Below are positions 17,319 to 47,945 of a stretch of DNA of 54,409 nt, in pieces (position 1 is the stretch's first letter; the number at the start of each line of letters is the position of its first letter). Origin of the DNA: Chloroflexota bacterium (lineage in GTDB: Bacteria; Chloroflexota; Dehalococcoidia; Lucifugimonadales; Lucifugimonadaceae); NCBI GenBank assembly GCA_027623795.1, contig JAQBUX010000002.1:1-54409 (forward strand), given 5' to 3'. Below the pieces are notes generated by a model. That model was given only the letters and a program-made list of their open reading frames with translations. It was not told the origin of the DNA and did no database searches. The position numbers were made by a program, and so were the translations under genes.

Positions 17319-18842
17319 TCAGGAACCGAGGTCGAGCGCTAATTGGATCAGGGTCCGTGTCGGAACACCGGTAGCCCCGTCGGGTTCCCAGTCGTGGACC
17401 GATCGCCCCATGTTCGTCGCTGCGATATCTAAGTGTACCCACGGGGTATCTCCCGCAAACTCGCCGATGAAGTGCGCTGCGGCAATCGAACCCGCGGCAC
17501 GGCCGCCCGTGTTCTTGAGGTCAGCTATGTCTGATTTGTTTTGTTTCTTCGTGATCGGGTCGAGCGGCATACGCCATACCGGCTCACCACGCTTCGCTCC
17601 CGCCGCTATCACCTGTCCGACGAGTTCGTCGTCGTTGCTGAACGCGCCCGAGTGGCCGCTCCCGAGCGCGACGATAATTGCGCCTGTCAGAGTGGCGATG
17701 TCCACCACCCTTTTGGCTCCTTTTGATCTGGCGAATCCGATCGCATCGGCCAGCGTGAGCCGTCCCTCCGCGTCCGTGTTGTCGACCTCGATACTCTTGC
17801 CGCCCATGGCGATCACTACATCGCCCGGCCGCTGTGCGCCACCGCCGGGCATGTTCTCCGTCGCTGCGCACACCACGTGGACGTTTAGCGTTGGCTTGAG
17901 GGCTGCGATCCCCTGCATCGCGGCGATCGCAGCAGCGCCCCCGGACATGTCGCCCTTCATCGCTCCCATGTTCGCTCCCGCTTTGAGAGAGATGCCGCCC
18001 GAATCGAAAGTGATGCCTTTGCCAACGATCCAGAGGTTGTTGTCTGGATTTCCAGGATCGCCCTCGTAGGTCATGTGGATGAATTTCGGCGGCTGATGGC
18101 TGCCGAGCGCAACGCCGACGTACGCGCCCATCCCAAGCGCCTCACAGTCCGCCCGCTCCAGGATCTCTATATCGACGCCGCCTTCGGTCGCGATCTCGTT
18201 TGCGATCTCCGCCAGACGCGTCGGATGGAGAACGTTTGCCGGCTCGCTGACCATGTCGCGTGCCGCGACCGAGGCGCTGGCGAACACCTGACCACGCGCT
18301 ACGCCCGCTTCCAGCGCAGATATCTTTGTAGCGTCCTGCTCCACGAGCGCCAGCGTCTTCGGCTTCGTCTCGTCGAAACTCGGCTTCGATGACGTCCTGT
18401 ACTTGTCGAAGCGGTACGATCCGAGGATCGCGCCCTCCGCCAGCGCCTCGGCGCATAGCCCCGCGTCCAGCCCACCGATTCCGGCGCCGTGGACGATGGT
18501 CGCTGCGCTATCGACGTTCAGTGACCGGAGTCGCCGGGCGACCACGGCGCTCACGGAACGGACGCCGTCCAGGTCAAACTCCTCAGGACTTCCGAGGCCC
18601 GCGACGATCACCCGGTCCGGCGCAAACCCGGGGTAAGCATCGCCCAGGGTGTGGATCACGGTGACTTCGCCGCGTCCGCCCTTGATCTCCCCGGCGGCTA
18701 TAAGGCGGCTGATAGCGCCGCCGATAGCGCCGTCCACGGCGCCGGTCGCGCCGCCGGGCGAATCAACTCCTTTAAACAGGTTGACGACGATGGCATCTAC
18801 CGCCTGGCCGGCTATGTCTCCAACGACCACCGAGAGTTCCAT
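17319..18842 (-). CDS. pepA: leucyl aminopeptidase (M17)
   Basis: NTDAEGRLTLADA, GKGITFDSGGISLKAGANMGAMKGDMSGGAA; start at ATG 18842 with AAAGGAG SD. Confidence 0.92.
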   Translation of the reverse strand: MELSVVVGDIAGQAVDAIVVNLFKGVDSPGGATGAVDGAIGGAISRLIAAGEIKGGRGEVTVIHTLGDAYPGFAPDRVIVAGLGSPEEFDLDGVRSVSAVVARRLRSLNVDSAATIVHGAGIGGLDAGLCAEALAEGAILGSYRFDKYRTSSKPSFDETKPKTLALVEQDATKISALEAGVARGQVFASASVAARDMVSEPANVLHPTRLAEIANEIATEGGVDIEILERADCEALGMGAYVGVALGSHQPPKFIHMTYEGDPGNPDNNLWIVGKGITFDSGGISLKAGANMGAMKGDMSGGAAAIAAMQGIAALKPTLNVHVVCAATENMPGGGAQRPGDVVIAMGGKSIEVDNTDAEGRLTLADAIGFARSKGAKRVVDIATLTGAIIVALGSGHSGAFSNDDELVGQVIAAGAKRGEPVWRMPLDPITKKQNKSDIADLKNTGGRAAGSIAAAHFIGEFAGDTPWVHLDIAATNMGRSVHDWEPDGATGVPTRTLIQLALDLGS

Positions 18843-19302
18843 GTGGGCTCCTTTAAGGTTCATACGAGGTCCGTTGCGCCGGTCGCACATGAGTCTCGTC
18901 ACCCGAATCGAAGGGTGTTCTTTCGTTAGTCCGGCCCCGGGCGTGATGCGGCATTGTAGGCATATTTGCACCGCCCGGCGGTCCCGTCGCGGATATGCAG
19001 GACGCCGTCGAGATCGGCCGTCTACCGCGCCCGGTACGAAGCCGCCATATGACGAGTATGTGAACTCAGTTCAATACTTAATTGAAATTATGTTCGGTAC
19101 TAACGTTATCTTGTGTCCCAATAATCCCACCGCTAGTGTGCCAAACACGTCGCCGTCGCAGACTGATCTCCCCAGGCCTTGCACCGCCGGGAGTATCAGC
19201 CAGGACGACGACTTGATAGGTCCCAAACGGGTCGACCGGGGGGTCAACTCGGGACCGTGTCGGAGGCGATCCGAACACGTTGCAACGAGCCAGGGGGGCG
19301 CC

Positions 19303-20242: not shown

Positions 20243-21604
20243 CTAGACCGGCTCCCCTACCAGTGTTTCCCCGTCCAGCCGAACAAGGCGAACCCGTTCG
20301 ATCTCGTTCGCCAGACCCGTGGACTCAGGTGAGCCGTCTCGCCGAACCCGCAGGTAGGTGTCTGTCAAACCCATGGCCGGCGCCCCGGGCGCCCGGGTTT
20401 CGTTCTCCCAGAGCACCGGCCGGACGGCGCCGATCGCATTCTGACGAACCTTCATGGACGACCGCGACGCCCGTTCACGAAGCTCTGCAGCACGTCGGGC
20501 CCTGTCATGAAGATCGACAACGTCTTCCAAATGGGCGGCGCTTGTCCCCGGCCGCTCGGAGTAAGGAAACACGTGAAGGTCTGCAAATTCCACACGCTCG
20601 ACGATTTCCAGAGTCGAGCGGTGGTCCTCCTCAGACTCGCCCGGGAAACCGGCGATAGCGTCGCCGGTGATCGAGACGTCTGGCAACGCCGAGCGCACCT
20701 GTCCCACGGCTGCGACGAAATCTTCTCGCGTGTAGCGTCGTCGCATCCTTGTGAGTATCGGGTCGCTACCTGATTGCAATGGCATGTGGAAGTGGGGGCA
20801 CAGCCGTCCATCGCCTTCCAACGACCAGACTTCAAGAAGCTCGGGAGTGATCTCCCCGGGTTGCAGCGACGACACCCGCAGCCTCTCGATCTCCGTTTCC
20901 CCGAGTACGCGACGGAGCATCGACGACAGGTTCGCGTCCGGGAGGTCGAAACCGTAACTGCCGAGCTGGGTGCCGGTAAGCACCACCTCGCGGCACCCCT
21001 CGTCGACCAGCCTTGCCACCTGTTGTACGAGTATCTCCTGCGGCACACTCCGTTCCCGTCCTCGTACGTACGGGACGATGCAGTACGAACAGACCTGGTC
21101 ACACCCCTCCTGGATCTTGAGCGACGCCCGAGAACGGCCCAGAAGCAGCCCGGTCCCTTTTGGCGGCGCTCCGTCCGTGCGGGGCGTCAGGGAGACGTCC
21201 AATCGGTCGGTCACCATCGACGTTAGCCGTCGCTTCTCCCGGTTTGTCACGACAAGGTCCACAGCCGCCAGATCTTCCACCCCGGCGGCGTCCCGTTGGG
21301 CAAGGCATCCCGTCGCGACGATCAAAGCGTCAGGGAAGGAGCGGCGAGCGCGCGCAAGCGATTGCCGCGCTTTGCGATCAGCGACCTGGGTCACCGTGCA
21401 ACTGTCCAGCACATAAACATCCGGCGCGTCCCCGTCCATGGCGATCGCGTAACCCGCCAGAACGAACTCGCGCGCCATCCGCTGACTGTCGGCCATGTTC
21501 AATTTGCAACCGTGGGTCTCGATACGAACCCGTGGAGCGCTGTCTGATGGGCGGAACGGCTGAATTACCGTTGTCAAAGGTTTATAGCGGGCATTGGGAA
21601 ACAT
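20243..21604 (-). CDS. mtaB: MiaB-like radical SAM tRNA methylthiotransferase (MtaB-type)
   Basis: RVRIETHGCKLNMADSQ, DSCTVTQVADRKARQ, CDQVCSYCIVPYVRGRERSV (CxxxCxxC). Confidence 0.9.
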   Translation of the reverse strand: MFPNARYKPLTTVIQPFRPSDSAPRVRIETHGCKLNMADSQRMAREFVLAGYAIAMDGDAPDVYVLDSCTVTQVADRKARQSLARARRSFPDALIVATGCLAQRDAAGVEDLAAVDLVVTNREKRRLTSMVTDRLDVSLTPRTDGAPPKGTGLLLGRSRASLKIQEGCDQVCSYCIVPYVRGRERSVPQEILVQQVARLVDEGCREVVLTGTQLGSYGFDLPDANLSSMLRRVLGETEIERLRVSSLQPGEITPELLEVWSLEGDGRLCPHFHMPLQSGSDPILTRMRRRYTREDFVAAVGQVRSALPDVSITGDAIAGFPGESEEDHRSTLEIVERVEFADLHVFPYSERPGTSAAHLEDVVDLHDRARRAAELRERASRSSMKVRQNAIGAVRPVLWENETRAPGAPAMGLTDTYLRVRRDGSPESTGLANEIERVRLVRLDGETLVGEPV

Positions 21605-27690: not shown

Positions 27691-27798
27691 GGAACGGTCT
27701 CGGCTGGGGTAGACTGGCGCATTCGCAACGCGTGACCTTTGGCGGCGTGCCGACCGGGCACGCGCGCCGCCGATCCTCACTTACTGGGGGACCGACAT

Positions 27799-28515
27799 AT
27801 GACCGTTATCGCAATCGAGGGACGCGCTGGTTCCGGCGCCGTAGATGTCGGCCGAGCGGTGGCCCGTGAAATGGGCCTGGATTTCGTCGACCGACTGCTC
27901 CTCGCCGAGATCGCCCGACGCGTCGGCGCGACCGTCGAAGCCGTCCACGACTCGACTCTCCGGACACCGGGCCGCGGCGAGCGATTCGTAAACCTGGTCC
28001 AGCGCATGCTCGAGAGATCATCGGTCGCCGGGGCGGGTGGAGACCCTTACTTCGGTCCGGGTGTAGACACGCTGATCGCCCGGCCGTACGCCGAGATGAG
28101 TGTGTCGCCCGCCACCTCCGCACAGGAGGTGGACGAGCAACATTTCATAAGTACGACCGCCGAGGTGATACGAGACGTTGCGGAGGCAGGCAACGCCGTC
28201 ATCGTAAGTCGTGGCTGCGCTGCGATCTTGAGGGACAAACCGGACGTGTTGCGCGTGGGCCTGGTCGCCCAGCGTTCAGACCGGGCACGCCGGGTTCTGA
28301 GTCAATTCCAGCTTGATGACATGGAGGCCGCAGAGCAGTACGTGGACCGCTCAGACACCGCTCAGGCGCGCTATTTTGAGCGCGCTTTCGGTACCAGCCC
28401 ACTCGACCCCTTCCTGTATCATGTGATGTGGAATCTCTCCCAGGTCAGTGACGAGTGGGCAGCCGCTCGAATCATGGACGCTTCCCGGGCTCTTTCGGAG
28501 CGGACCCTGCGCTGA
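27799..28515 (+). CDS. cytidylate kinase-like family protein
   Basis: MTVIAIEGRAGSGAVDVGRAVAREMGLDFVDRLLLAEIA; ISTTAEVIRDVAEAGNAVIVSRGCAAIL; internal ATG 27799. Confidence 0.8.
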   Translation: MTVIAIEGRAGSGAVDVGRAVAREMGLDFVDRLLLAEIARRVGATVEAVHDSTLRTPGRGERFVNLVQRMLERSSVAGAGGDPYFGPGVDTLIARPYAEMSVSPATSAQEVDEQHFISTTAEVIRDVAEAGNAVIVSRGCAAILRDKPDVLRVGLVAQRSDRARRVLSQFQLDDMEAAEQYVDRSDTAQARYFERAFGTSPLDPFLYHVMWNLSQVSDEWAAARIMDASRALSERTLR

Positions 28516-42741: not shown

Positions 42742-42894
42742 TTAGCAGCGCGCGCTGCAATAGAGTCCGTCGGTCGTAACCACCGGTTCCTCGACCATCG
42801 TGCGCGGGATCAGTTCTCCGGTGAGCTGTTCCAAGTCGCCGTCTCCCGGATCGATTTCGGCCACCGAAACGGCGGCCCGAGATCCTAGCTTCAC
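42742..42894 (-). CDS. candidate RiPP-precursor-like peptide (50 aa), GTG start overlapping pqqD-like stop
   Basis: MKLGSRAAVSVAEIDPGDGDLEQLTGELIPRTMVEEPVVTTDGLYCSARC*; 4-bp GTGA overlap with upstream gene; not in the supplied ORF track. Confidence 0.5.
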   Translation of the reverse strand: MKLGSRAAVSVAEIDPGDGDLEQLTGELIPRTMVEEPVVTTDGLYCSARC

Positions 42895-43193
42895 CAGGTC
42901 GTCAGGCCCGCGCGGCGGAATCCTAACAACACTTCACTGACGTCTGAAGCTACGGAATCGTGATCGAGTCCGTAGTAGCCCGCCAATTCCGACCCGATCT
43001 CGGCCACGGTCCGTTTTCCGTCGATCAAGAACCACACCACAGTGCCGGCGCCATTGAGAACGTGTGTTCCATCCGTCCGCGGATCGTAAAGGACCAGCTC
43101 GTCTTCGAGTTCATGCTCTACCAGACCCTCGACGCAGACCGGTTTGACATCAGGCTTCAATCGTGCGGCGGGTTTCAATGAGTGAGTGGTCAA
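42891..43193 (-). CDS. PqqD-like (RiPP recognition element fold) protein, TTG start
   Basis: ELEDELVLYDPRTDGTHVLNGAGTVVWFLIDGKRTVAEIGSELAGYYGLDHDSVASDVSEVLLGFRRAGL; AGGAGG SD upstream of TTG 43193. Confidence 0.82.
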   Translation of the reverse strand: MTTHSLKPAARLKPDVKPVCVEGLVEHELEDELVLYDPRTDGTHVLNGAGTVVWFLIDGKRTVAEIGSELAGYYGLDHDSVASDVSEVLLGFRRAGLTTW

Positions 43194-43797
43194 GAACCGA
43201 GCCTCCTAGGAGTGGGAACGTTCGGGTCAACATTGGTTTCAGCGTGGACGCGCGCCGTAACCGCCCTTTCGGTGATCACATCTGAAGAGCGAATGCTCCG
43301 AGTACAGGGCCGCCGCGCTGATCTCCGACTATTGCGGGGGGTCAACGTGATCTGTCGGCCCGCAGTGTCCGGGTGGGTATGCCGGCGTCTCCGGCGAAAC
43401 TCGTGGGAATCTCCTTCCAGACGTTGGAGGTCGGTCCCTGCTCCAGGGTCGCGACTCGTCGAAAACGAAACCGTGAGTCCGCTCCACCGATGAGTCGCGC
43501 GATCTAACGGTACGCACCGGTTTGTTCGTCTGTCCATGAACCGCACGTAAAAATTGACGCCGCGCCCTGCGGCGTTTTGTCTCTGCCCGGAACACCCTCA
43601 AGGAAGGGATCGATCCCCGATCCCCATCGCTAGAATGGGCGTCCTCGATAAGTGAGTTTCGGTCGTAACAATTCGGTAAAGACGCGCCTCGTCAAAGGTC
43701 AAAATTGCCACATTTGCCATGGCGATAGTCAGGTACCTGTCACCGTACCGCCGGCCGCCACCGTTGGATCGGACAGCGACATCTGGGGGTGATCTGG

Positions 43798-43974
43798 ATG
43801 GGCGCAATCTTGGTGAGAACCACACAAAGGATTCGGGTGGCACGCAATTCTTTCTTCGGCGAATTCGCCGATGATCGATGTGAGGGAACGGCCGAAGCCG
43901 TCCGCCGCATGCAGTTGTTGGAAGCGACCTGCGTTGTCTACAACACCCGGGAAATCGTCATCTGTGAAGGGTGA
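43798..43974 (+). CDS. candidate small ORF (58 aa) overlapping the next gene's start
   Basis: ATG 43798; MGAILVRTTQRIRVARNSFFGEFADDRCEGTAEAVRRMQLLEATCVVYNTREIVICEG. Confidence 0.25.
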   Translation: MGAILVRTTQRIRVARNSFFGEFADDRCEGTAEAVRRMQLLEATCVVYNTREIVICEG

Positions 43975-44443
43975 ACCCACCCCGCGCATAATCGTCGCCG
44001 GTCCTGGCGAGTGGCGTGAAGTTGTCGCAGGCCGTCTTCGGAGGGACAAACGGTTCTCGGTTGTCGCCGAGATCGAGGCCGATTTCAACTCGGTCGAGAT
44101 CGCCCGCGTCCCCGCCGCCGACATCCTCGTAACCACCGTGGACCCCGTGTTCACGTCACCGGCCACAAAATTGGCTGTCGCGCTCCAGAAAAAGTTCCAC
44201 GCTTTGGCCGTGGTCGTCGTTCTCCCTGACATGCACGCCGACGAGCTCACGACCCTGGTGCCATACCGCTCCGTGTGGAGCGTCCTTTCGGCAAAGGCTT
44301 GTGAAGACGCCGATATCTTCCTCTCAGCGGTCTGGTCCGCGTCGAGAGGCATAACCTGGGTCGATCCGGCCATGCACCGCTTGCTGAACGATGTACATGC
44401 CCTCAGCTCCCGCCGTTCGACCCCGGTGCCCGGCTTCGAGTAG
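43964..44443 (+). CDS. stand-alone degenerate receiver-like protein (GTG start)
   Basis: RIIVAGPGEWREVVAGRLRRDKRFSVVAEI...ADILVTTVDPVF...LAVVVVLPD...VWSVLSAKACEDADIFLSAVWSASRGITWVDPAMHRLL; REC-like strand/helix layout, no HTH. Confidence 0.55.
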   Translation: MKGEPTPRIIVAGPGEWREVVAGRLRRDKRFSVVAEIEADFNSVEIARVPAADILVTTVDPVFTSPATKLAVALQKKFHALAVVVVLPDMHADELTTLVPYRSVWSVLSAKACEDADIFLSAVWSASRGITWVDPAMHRLLNDVHALSSRRSTPVPGFE

Positions 44444-44467: not shown

Positions 44468-46861
44468 CTAACGGTCCGGATCTTCATCGAGATCTCCTTC
44501 GATGCGCCGGGCGTCCTCATGCCTACCCATGGCCCTGTAAGCGGCCGCGAGGTTGGCGGTGCAGGTCACCGAGATCGGATGACTCTCACCGAGCACTCTG
44601 AGCGCCACCTCAAGAATCTCTTCGAACGCCGGGATGGCCTCTTCTACGTTACCTACCTCGCTCCGCGCCGCGGCGGCGTTGTTCATGCTTGTCAGGGTCT
44701 TGGGATGCTCAGGGCCGAGGATCTTTTTCCGGTCTGCGATGTTCTGCTCGTACATCATCAAGGCGTCACGCAGGTTGCCGCTTGCGCGGTGCGCGCTTGC
44801 AAGGTTGTTTCGACTGGTGAGCGTGCCGGTATGCTCGCTGCCGAGGGTTCGCGTACGCGCTTCCAACGTGTCCTTGTACATCTCCATCGCCTCGCTAAGG
44901 CGACCGTCCGAGTGGTACGCGGTGGCCATATTATTGCGGGTTGTTAAGGTCCGGCGATCCTCCGCTCCGAACAGCCGCGTCCGGGCCTCAAGGGCATCTT
45001 CATACAGCTCTAACGCGTCTCCGAGTCTGCCCGAGGTCTGATACGCCGTCGCGAGGTTGCTCCTCGTCTCCAGCGTGTCGGGATGATCAACTCCCAGGAT
45101 CCGCGTGCGCAACTCAAGCGTCTTCTCGTAGAGCGGCACCGCCTGATGTACGTGTCCCGCCGCCTGGTAGGCGGAGGCGAGCATGTTGCGCCCGGCGAGC
45201 GTATCCGGGTGCTCCGGTCCGAGCAGTTTTTCCCGCGCCCTGACGGCCCTTTCGTACAAGGGGACGGCTTCATTCATGTGCCCTGCTGCTCGATGGGCGG
45301 TCGCCAGGTTCTGACGACTGGCCACCGTCGTCGGATGATCCGGACCGAGGCTCCGTTCGGCCTCGGCGAGCGTCTTGTGATGGACGGCGATCGCTTCTTC
45401 GACCCGGCCGGCAGCCTGATAGACCGTTGCCAGATTGTTCCGGGCGGCAATGGTGCTCGGATGATCTTCGCCCAGAGACTCAGAGCGAACCTTTAGCGAC
45501 TCCTCGGTCAACGCTATGGCCGCGTCCACACGGCTCATCGCGTGGTAGGCGACCGCAAGTTCGCTGACGAAATCGATCACGATGGCTTGCAGATCAGGAT
45601 GGGTACGCGCTCTGGCCAGAATGCGCTCGTAGTGAGCGATGTCGCCGCGCAGATCGGCGTCTGGCTTGCGATTGGCCCTGACGAGCCTTGTCTTCGCCCG
45701 GCGCAGAGTTATCTCCAGCGCGTCGGTGTCTTTCTTACCGCCGACCACCCGTTTGAAAGAAGTGCCGACTTTGCCGGACTGGCTGGCGGCGGGAATGGCC
45801 GCTATGACGGCAGGTTGGATCCTGACCGAACCTCCGTGCCAGGAAAGAAGCGATCGTCTGCTGCACGCCCGGAACATGTCCAGCAGCTCGTCCCCTTCGA
45901 GCGAAACGAGCGCCGTGACAAGCCCCTGTGAGATGGGGACGTCGGACGTGTAACCAAGCGGAACAAGTTGCCGGCGCACGGACGACGGTAGCGCACGCAG
46001 TGCGATGGCGGCCGCCGCCAGTATGTGACCGCCCTGCCCCGATTCATCATCCTCATACGGCGTGCCCGTTGCGTCCACAACCGTTTTCCGCAACTCGCTG
46101 AGAAGATCTGCTGGAGCGTCACCGGCGGCGATGCGTCCGCCAAGGAGTTCGAGGGCCACCGGGAATCGGCCGACGTACTCCGCCAGTTCAAGAGCCAGCG
46201 GATCTTCTTTCGATTCGGCGTTGCGCGCCCCCAGCAACTGCAAAGCGGCTTCGGGAGCCAGAGGTTCCAGCTCGACGTTGGATACACCTTCGGCGAGCGT
46301 TCCCGTGGCGCTGTGCTGCATCGTAATGAGTGGCCGTACCTGGCTGCAGGCGTCAAGCACCCCGGCAACCTGATCCGCGTCCGAAAGGTCGTCGATCACC
46401 CAGAGTGTTGTGTCAGGAAATGCTTCGAGCAAACGTCTGACATCGGACGCAAGCTCGCCGTCGGTACGGCGATCCACCCTGAGATACAACGCAGGCGCAA
46501 GCGCTGCGAGGGTCTCGTCCAACGTCCTGCCAGCGGTGGTCCAGAATCCGGGCGCCTTGGTCTGATGCGCATATTCAGCGGCGAGACGTGTCTTGCCGAC
46601 TCCAGGCTGGCCTGAGATGGTCACCCCTCGGTCGTTGCTGAATGCTTCAGCAACCGCCTCCAGGTCTCCGTCGCGCCCGAAGAACATGTCGACGAGTGAA
46701 CCCGGCCTGCCCTGCCACGTGTTGTCGGAAGGCGCCTCCGGACCCGTCGGCGTCGAATGCCCGACAACCGAAGGTTCGCTCAGGTCGGCTTCCTGTTCGG
46801 CCTGGTGGTCCAATTTCCGGCGCCCGTTGATGAGTTCGGTCGCCCTCGCAAGAATCTTCAT
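44468..46861 (-). CDS. STAND-type (NB-ARC-like) ATPase with C-terminal 42-residue TPR repeats
   Basis: Walker A ISGQPGVGKTRLAAEYA, Walker B TLWVIDDLSD; eight 42-aa repeats of type AVPLYEKTLELRTRILGVDHPDTLETRSNLATAYQTSGRLGD; ATG 46861. Confidence 0.88.
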   Translation of the reverse strand: MKILARATELINGRRKLDHQAEQEADLSEPSVVGHSTPTGPEAPSDNTWQGRPGSLVDMFFGRDGDLEAVAEAFSNDRGVTISGQPGVGKTRLAAEYAHQTKAPGFWTTAGRTLDETLAALAPALYLRVDRRTDGELASDVRRLLEAFPDTTLWVIDDLSDADQVAGVLDACSQVRPLITMQHSATGTLAEGVSNVELEPLAPEAALQLLGARNAESKEDPLALELAEYVGRFPVALELLGGRIAAGDAPADLLSELRKTVVDATGTPYEDDESGQGGHILAAAAIALRALPSSVRRQLVPLGYTSDVPISQGLVTALVSLEGDELLDMFRACSRRSLLSWHGGSVRIQPAVIAAIPAASQSGKVGTSFKRVVGGKKDTDALEITLRRAKTRLVRANRKPDADLRGDIAHYERILARARTHPDLQAIVIDFVSELAVAYHAMSRVDAAIALTEESLKVRSESLGEDHPSTIAARNNLATVYQAAGRVEEAIAVHHKTLAEAERSLGPDHPTTVASRQNLATAHRAAGHMNEAVPLYERAVRAREKLLGPEHPDTLAGRNMLASAYQAAGHVHQAVPLYEKTLELRTRILGVDHPDTLETRSNLATAYQTSGRLGDALELYEDALEARTRLFGAEDRRTLTTRNNMATAYHSDGRLSEAMEMYKDTLEARTRTLGSEHTGTLTSRNNLASAHRASGNLRDALMMYEQNIADRKKILGPEHPKTLTSMNNAAAARSEVGNVEEAIPAFEEILEVALRVLGESHPISVTCTANLAAAYRAMGRHEDARRIEGDLDEDPDR

Positions 46862-47179
46862 AGGCCTGACCGGTCCTAAATCGTTGCTCCCAGCCCCCAA
46901 CGCCGTACACCTGATCCCTTGCTCGGGATCGGCCGGGGCCCGGGAGTGATCCGAGGTCCCGCGGCGTCGGTGAACACATCTCAATTGTTGTGTAACAGCC
47001 CGCCCCGCGCCGCGCCGATAAGCGCGACGGGAGCGTTCATGACGGCGCGTGTCGTGAGCCGATCGGCTCATGAATAGCCGACGGGATCCGATCCATAAAG
47101 CCGGCGCACGACGATCAGTGGGCGTCAGCCGTGTAGCCTGTGCCCACTTTTTGGCCAGACATTTTGGGAGGAGATCGAG

Positions 47180-47945
47180 TTGAACATCGTGTCGTGGAAC
47201 GTGAACGGCATACGCGCCGTACAGAAGCGCGGCTTTCTCGAGTGGGTCGGCGATACCCAGCCGGATGTGCTCGCCCTTCAGGAAACGAAGGTCAATGACG
47301 ACACACTGCCGACGGAACTTCGGGACATCGCCGGCTACGAATCTCACTTCTCATATGCGTCGACACGCAGGGGTTACAGCGGCGTCGCTGTGTACTCAAA
47401 GACGAGTCCGCGGGCGGTAGATCTCACATTCGGAGCGCCGGAGTTTGACGACGAGGGGAGGCATCTGATCGCTGATTTCGGGGAGTTCGCCCTGGCGAAC
47501 GTTTACTTCCCAAACGGCAGAAGCTCGAAAGAGCGGCTTGAGTACAAGATGAGGTACTACGACGCGTTCCTCGAGTTCGCCAGAACTAAGGTCGCAGGTG
47601 GCAGGGACCTGGCCATATGCGGCGACTTCAACACGGCGCGCCGTGAGATCGATCTGGCCCGGCCCCGGGAAAACTCGAAAACGTCAGGTTTCCTGCCGGA
47701 AGAGAGGGCCTGGATGGACAGGCTCGTCGAGGCGGGATTCGTCGACGCGTTTCGTATGTTCAACGACTCGCCGGAGCAGTATTCGTGGTGGAGCCGGAGG
47801 TCCGGGGCGCGCGCCCAGAAACGTCGGGTGGCGGTTGGACTACTTCTTCGTCAACGAGGGCTTCAAAAACAGCGTGATGGCGGCCCCGATCCATTCAGAT
47901 GTGATGGGGTCAGACCATTGCCCCGTCGCCATAGAGGTTGTGTAA
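47180..47945 (+). pseudogene. xth: exodeoxyribonuclease III, apparent +1 frameshift near 47805-47820
   Basis: MNIVSWNVNGIRAVQKRGFLEWV...[13 protein letters not shown]...[13 protein letters not shown] then frame change to [43 protein letters not shown]. Confidence 0.85.

Follow-up and report, generated by a model that had tools for sequence, protein, structure and literature searches.

A PqqD-like gene overlapping a small, probably coding open reading frame in a Chloroflexota genome: a tentative RRE-peptide pair

Introduction

RREs that occur as separate proteins recruit a peptide to an enzyme by binding it (RRE-Finder paper, PMC7470986). In the PQQ and mycofactocin systems a small RRE gene (pqqD or mftB) adjoins a small peptide gene (pqqA or mftA), and the hallmark of MftA is a C-terminal IDGxCGVY motif (PMC5264612). 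The HPr-rel-A system comprises a PqqD protein (TIGR04353) and the HprK-related kinase A (TIGR04352). Discrete RREs, among them TbiB1 and TfuB1, also serve lasso systems, in which the peptide core carries its ring acceptor, an Asp or Glu, at position 7–9. Here we describe a PqqD-like gene that overlaps a 50-codon open reading frame, for which a RiPP-type system had been proposed from the sequence (the original prediction), and compare this locus with the systems above.

Results

Organisation of the locus

The window, the whole stretch of 54,409 nucleotides that was analysed, is contig C37 of a 2.95-Mb genome that is 83% complete and lies in 357 contigs. A family search of the neighbours of the locus identified thioredoxin-like, SDR, NfeD, band-7, TPR/NTPase and dnaN genes. 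The features of the locus are as follows:

43557..43575, minus strand: terminator-like hairpin upstream of pqqD, from a consensus scan
43207–43202, minus strand: Shine-Dalgarno sequence AGGAGG of the pqqD-like gene, 8 nt before the TTG, read directly
42891..43193, minus strand: PqqD-like/RRE gene of 100 aa, TTG start at 43193–43191, C-terminal end GLTTW-TGA, read directly
42891..42894, minus strand: GTGA stop-start overlap of four bases, read directly
42742..42894, minus strand: 50-codon ORF, candidate RRE ligand or precursor peptide, GTG start at 42894–42892 and TAA stop, from codon statistics and the frame switch
42745..42771, minus strand: C-terminal tail DGLYCSARC (residues 42–50), candidate core, from the translation, its role being putative

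Direct reading bore out the TTG start, the AGGAGG and the GLTTW-TGA end that the original prediction had given for the PqqD-like gene, as well as the 50-aa ORF whose GTG overlaps the pqqD TGA as GTGA; the translation of this ORF was as quoted there, with GTG read as M, and ended in TTDGLYCSARC. Translational coupling through the GTGA overlap is probable. The consensus scan found four terminator-like sites against 1.0 expected in shuffles, and the hairpin upstream of pqqD weakly suggests that pqqD and the ORF may form a short transcription unit of their own.

Two further ORFs lie beyond pqqD. The large NTPase/TPR protein encoded at 44468–47347 on the minus strand scored 404 bits against a TPR family of the FxSxx-COOH system (cut-off 300), and no further FxSxx gene was seen near it. 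Between this gene and pqqD, on the plus strand, a 190-aa ORF (43871–44443) had coding-like composition (23 bits) and no significant family match in Pfam or NCBIfam.

The PqqD-like protein

Comparison of the PqqD-like protein with the Pfam PqqD family (PF05402) gave 45.5 bits (cut-off 23.4). Its AlphaFold2 model (pLDDT 86) had the order E-E-E-H-H-H, a predicted three-strand, three-helix winged fold, and the best PDB matches to the model were TbiB1 with leader peptide (TM 0.70–0.75), PqqD (5sxy) and TfuB1. The PF05402 score above the cut-off and the predicted RRE fold support the PqqD-family/RRE identity that had been assigned to this protein. Among NCBIfam models the top match was the PqqD protein of HPr-rel-A (TIGR04353), at 30.5 bits and below the cut-off of 35; the protein did not match the MftB model.

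Coding signal of the 50-codon ORF

A codon model was trained on 19 long window ORFs, most of which had family matches. Under this model the 50-codon ORF scored 14.0 bits, which ranked second of the 223 window ORFs of 40–65 aa and was close to the 12.5-bit median for 50-codon segments of true genes. Both halves of the ORF were positive in frame and the two shifted frames were negative. Open frames simulated under two backgrounds had a mean of about −7 bits; of 500, not one reached 14. GC content by codon position was 0.69/0.47/0.71 in the ORF and 0.64/0.43/0.65 in pqqD, the pattern of the long genes here. Sliding windows along the minus strand favoured the pqqD frame up to the overlap and the ORF frame from there on, with a drop beyond the ORF stop. 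We conclude from composition, rather than expression, that the 50-aa ORF is very probably coding and translated by coupling. The top codon-usage score among the small ORFs of the window belonged to a minus-strand frame at 27781–27948, which lies opposite a larger plus-strand ORF.

The peptide had no match in Pfam or in NCBIfam (the latter to E ≤ 10). The Cys pattern of its tail, two or more among the final eight residues and none elsewhere, occurred in 4 of the 393 window ORFs of 30–80 aa. Residues 21–24 (LEQL, an LxxL) fit a broad W/Y/LxxP/L/I motif (PMC12710340), a match that is expected by chance.

Conservation and the second copy

The only other PqqD gene of the genome is on contig C248 and its product is 62% identical to the window PqqD; it likewise ends in Trp and keeps the GTGA overlap. 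Differences between the two pqqD copies were distributed 27/21/63 over the three codon positions, a distribution that shows clear purifying selection on pqqD. Downstream of the overlap about 39 bases (some 13 codons) aligned, of which 29 were identical, pairing the peptide stretches MTLASWAAVLATE and MKLGSRAAVSVAE. In C248 the frame soon meets a stop at codon 19, after 18 codons (MTLASWAAVLATEEDDHK), and has no Cys tail. As substitutions in the 13 alignable codons fell 5/5/3 by codon position (Fisher p = 0.037 against pqqD), the small ORF shows no sign of protein-level constraint between the copies, but the C248 ORF is cut short and may no longer be functional. The conservation test is weakened by this truncation, with which constraint may have been lost, and by the lack of a true ortholog at hand.

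In a tblastn search of 76 genomes from the same family the 50-aa peptide had no significant homolog; there was none among 393 genomes of the class, no match in viral contigs and plasmids, and none beside the distant PqqD relatives examined (identity 33–43% and below). None of the other seven genomes of the genus yielded a PqqD. Weak tblastn matches in two genomes of the same genus (G027 and G030) lay in or opposite a decarboxylase-like gene and were rejected as chance; class-wide matches (E 0.005–0.3) fell for the most part within long unrelated frames and were likewise set aside. A single PqqD-peptide protein split by a sequencing error was also rejected: the C248 copy likewise stops right after the Trp and its closest relatives one residue further on, the ends being LATW-stop, LVHWR-stop and LVRWR-stop. 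The original prediction had looked to conservation of the reading frame and of LYCSARC, to tBLASTn homologs and to codon bias in the small ORF; with the frame cut at codon 19 and the tail absent in the second copy, no homolog in the family and class genomes, and a 5/5/3 distribution over 13 codons of which the second copy is truncated, the outcome speaks mostly against it.

PqqD relatives in Chloroflexota

Searching genome contigs with the PqqD protein alone returned nothing; an alignment query returned 11 loci, the best at 43%. The PqqD loci collected were mainly of Chloroflexota, with a few other phyla represented. Roughly half of them adjoined an HprK-like kinase (TIGR04352-like, below the cut-off), several adjoined NTP_transf_5 genes, and four (L061, L062, L063 and L066) belonged to lasso-type clusters that include a B2 protease. 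These four, from a sister genus (g7), encode an NTP_transf_5 protein, PqqD, the B2 protease and an Asn-synthetase-like protein. In another locus (L044, genome G106) an HprK-like kinase, PqqD and a radical SAM/SPASM protein form a one-strand cassette, and the radical SAM protein scored below every RiPP-maturase cut-off.

Many of the collected PqqD were fused to, or directly adjoined, a Tat-signal protein. The Chloroflexota fusions, of the RRE domain with a twin-arginine signal and an exported tail, included ones with Cys-rich tails (L058, L059, L079, L080, L081, L082, L085 and L090) and others with Gly-rich or Thr-Pro-rich tails (L053, L054, L078, L084 and L089), frequently had genes for an HprK-like kinase and an NTP_transf_5 protein as neighbours, and were of an arrangement for which we found no description in the literature searched. 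On C248 the second pqqD is preceded by the gene of a DUF7467 protein with a Tat signal (L017:418–1803), which ends 15 bases upstream. The window copy of pqqD has none of these usual neighbours (HprK-like kinase, NTP_transf_5, B2 or Tat protein). A search ahead of it for remnants of the Tat protein seen on C248 gave no significant match.

Search for a modifying enzyme

Among the window ORFs scanned, nothing near the locus was recognised as a modifying enzyme, a leader peptidase or an exporter. The original prediction had stated that RiPP enzymes and proteases were missing from the window; this held for recognisable RiPP enzymes among the ORFs scanned, but a radical SAM enzyme and a peptidase are present. 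The former (20243–21604) is MtaB, of the tRNA methylthiotransferase type (391 bits, cut-off 357), and the latter is an M17 aminopeptidase (17319–18971); both are housekeeping types and have no bearing on pqqD and the small ORF.

Genome-wide searches covered radical SAM enzymes, MNIO and HprK-like kinases. The search for orphan radical SAM enzymes, suggested in the original prediction, gave 10 matches, but none of those scored was above a RiPP-maturase cut-off. Those fitting peptide-maturase models were a NirJ1/AhbC-like and TIGR04053 pair on contig C300 and a tungsten-maturase-like protein on contig C21. The NirJ1/AhbC-like and C21 proteins were below the NirJ1/AhbC and maturase cut-offs, and the C300 partner passed only TIGR04053. 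The best match to the MftC model reached 109 bits against a cut-off of 265, and the same contig fitted NirJ1/AhbC and TIGR04053 better. No HprK-like gene was found at the locus or, in searches run without a positive control genome, in the genome. No MNIO was found either, and an MNIO or thiaglutamate-like use of the C-terminal Cys was rejected on its absence from this genome (83% complete). An enzyme acting in trans is possible, because the genome-wide search was for radical SAM, MNIO and HprK-like genes and the assembly lacks 17% of the genome.

Discussion

The gene arrangement described here is real, and the 50-codon ORF is probably a gene. Our best guess is a dedicated RRE-peptide pair: the ORF is best read as a ligand of the RRE because it is coding-like and translationally coupled to the RRE gene. 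This reading is tentative, plausible rather than probable, because neither conservation of the peptide nor a suitable enzyme was found. In such a two-gene unit a stand-alone RRE protein would be made together with a small, lineage-specific peptide and would bind its acidic middle part as a leader, with the short Tyr/Cys tail DGLYCSARC staying free. If the peptide is modified, which we hold to be less likely than that it is bound, the enzyme would act in trans or be missing from the assembly. The immediate overlap with the RRE gene, kept in the second copy, argues for a pair, as do the rarity of the tail pattern in the window and the Cys-rich tails that other Chloroflexota have after RRE domains, in fusions with a Tat signal ahead of the tail. 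The missing peptide homologs, the truncated second copy with no third-position bias and the lack of a recognised enzyme nearby argue against it. Of the RiPP-type system first proposed, the RRE family and fold and a coding-like, coupled ORF stand; conservation of the peptide and a suitable enzyme were not found (genome 83% complete), and the claim, although possible, is not established.

The locus looks like an enzyme-less offshoot of the Chloroflexota PqqD/HprK-like kinase/Tat systems, and the pair may have lost or left its HprK-like kinase and Tat-exported partners. We would guess that the separate small peptide takes the place of an exported protein that is otherwise fused to the RRE or encoded next to it. 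A further reading, in which we place little confidence, is that a Chloroflexota peptide system whose RRE domain acts on a Cys-bearing tail is present here in split form and without an enzyme; if true, the Tat/Cys-tail fusions flanked by HprK-like genes would represent a secreted RiPP-like class whose substrate carries its recognition domain in cis.

Alternatively, the real partner of the RRE may be a Tat-exported protein encoded elsewhere, with the 50-aa ORF translated but incidental or young and merely tolerated behind pqqD. The second pqqD directly follows a Tat-signal DUF7467 protein, Tat proteins recur beside or fused to PqqD in Chloroflexota, and the ORF has no relatives; coding-type composition over all 50 codons would, however, be unexpected in an incidental ORF, and we regard this explanation as somewhat unlikely. 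Rather less likely, in our judgement, is a decaying locus, in which a duplicated pqqD has been left without its HprK-like kinase and Tat partner and the downstream frame is functionless and coding-like by chance. The absence of PqqD from the seven other genomes of the genus, the missing usual neighbours and the broken frame of the sister copy, with substitutions free of codon bias, are consistent with decay. Against it are the clear purifying selection on pqqD between the copies and a codon score that no simulated open frame matched.

A true RiPP pathway, possibly mycofactocin-like, with its enzyme gene in the missing 17% or on another contig, appears very improbable. The peptide stretch ELIPRTMVEEPVVTTDGL resembles what we take to be the MftA leader (ELVTETLVEEVSIDGM), a comparison picked after the resemblance was noticed, and shuffling the peptide 2000 times gave a local alignment score at least as high in 5 cases. 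However, the ORF does not end in IDGxCGVY, the peptide has no NCBIfam match, PqqD does not match MftB, and the top MftC-model matches (on C300 and C21) are far under the cut-off, heme-type and tungsten-maturase-type models being a better fit to them. Mycofactocin was therefore rejected because of the missing C-terminal motif and the outcomes for the MftB and MftC models, and the leader resemblance is kept as a lead only.

If the peptide does bind the RRE, the two would be a natural RRE-ligand pair with no adjacent enzyme, and such a pair would bear on the origin or decay of RiPP systems and on the role of the many stand-alone PF05402 proteins. The wider Chloroflexota pattern may be the more useful lead: the recurrence of an RRE with a Tat-exported, often Cys-rich protein and an HprK-like kinase suggests a use of RREs that is absent from the literature searched.

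Comparison with known systems

The locus shares with HPr-rel-A the top NCBIfam match of its PqqD, and its closest relatives outside this genome adjoin TIGR04352-like kinases; it differs in that the TIGR04353 score is below the cut-off and an HprK-like gene is neither adjoining nor found in the genome. With PQQ and mycofactocin it has in common a small peptide gene adjoining a small RRE gene, whereas the genome has no PqqE/MftC-type enzyme above the cut-off and the peptide has a different end. The discrete RREs of lasso systems, TbiB1 and TfuB1, resemble the window protein in predicted fold, in size and in being free-standing. In contrast to lasso clusters, there is no B2 protease in the 3.3-kb window locus and no B2 or cyclase among the window ORFs scanned, and the tail GLYCSARC has no Asp or Glu at positions 7–9 after the Gly. 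The PqqD-Tat fusions carry their tail behind a Tat signal in the same protein, usually beside an HprK-like kinase, whereas the window tail is on a separate ORF with no signal; they resemble the window pair in phylum and in having, after the RRE domain, a tail that is Cys-rich in some cases.
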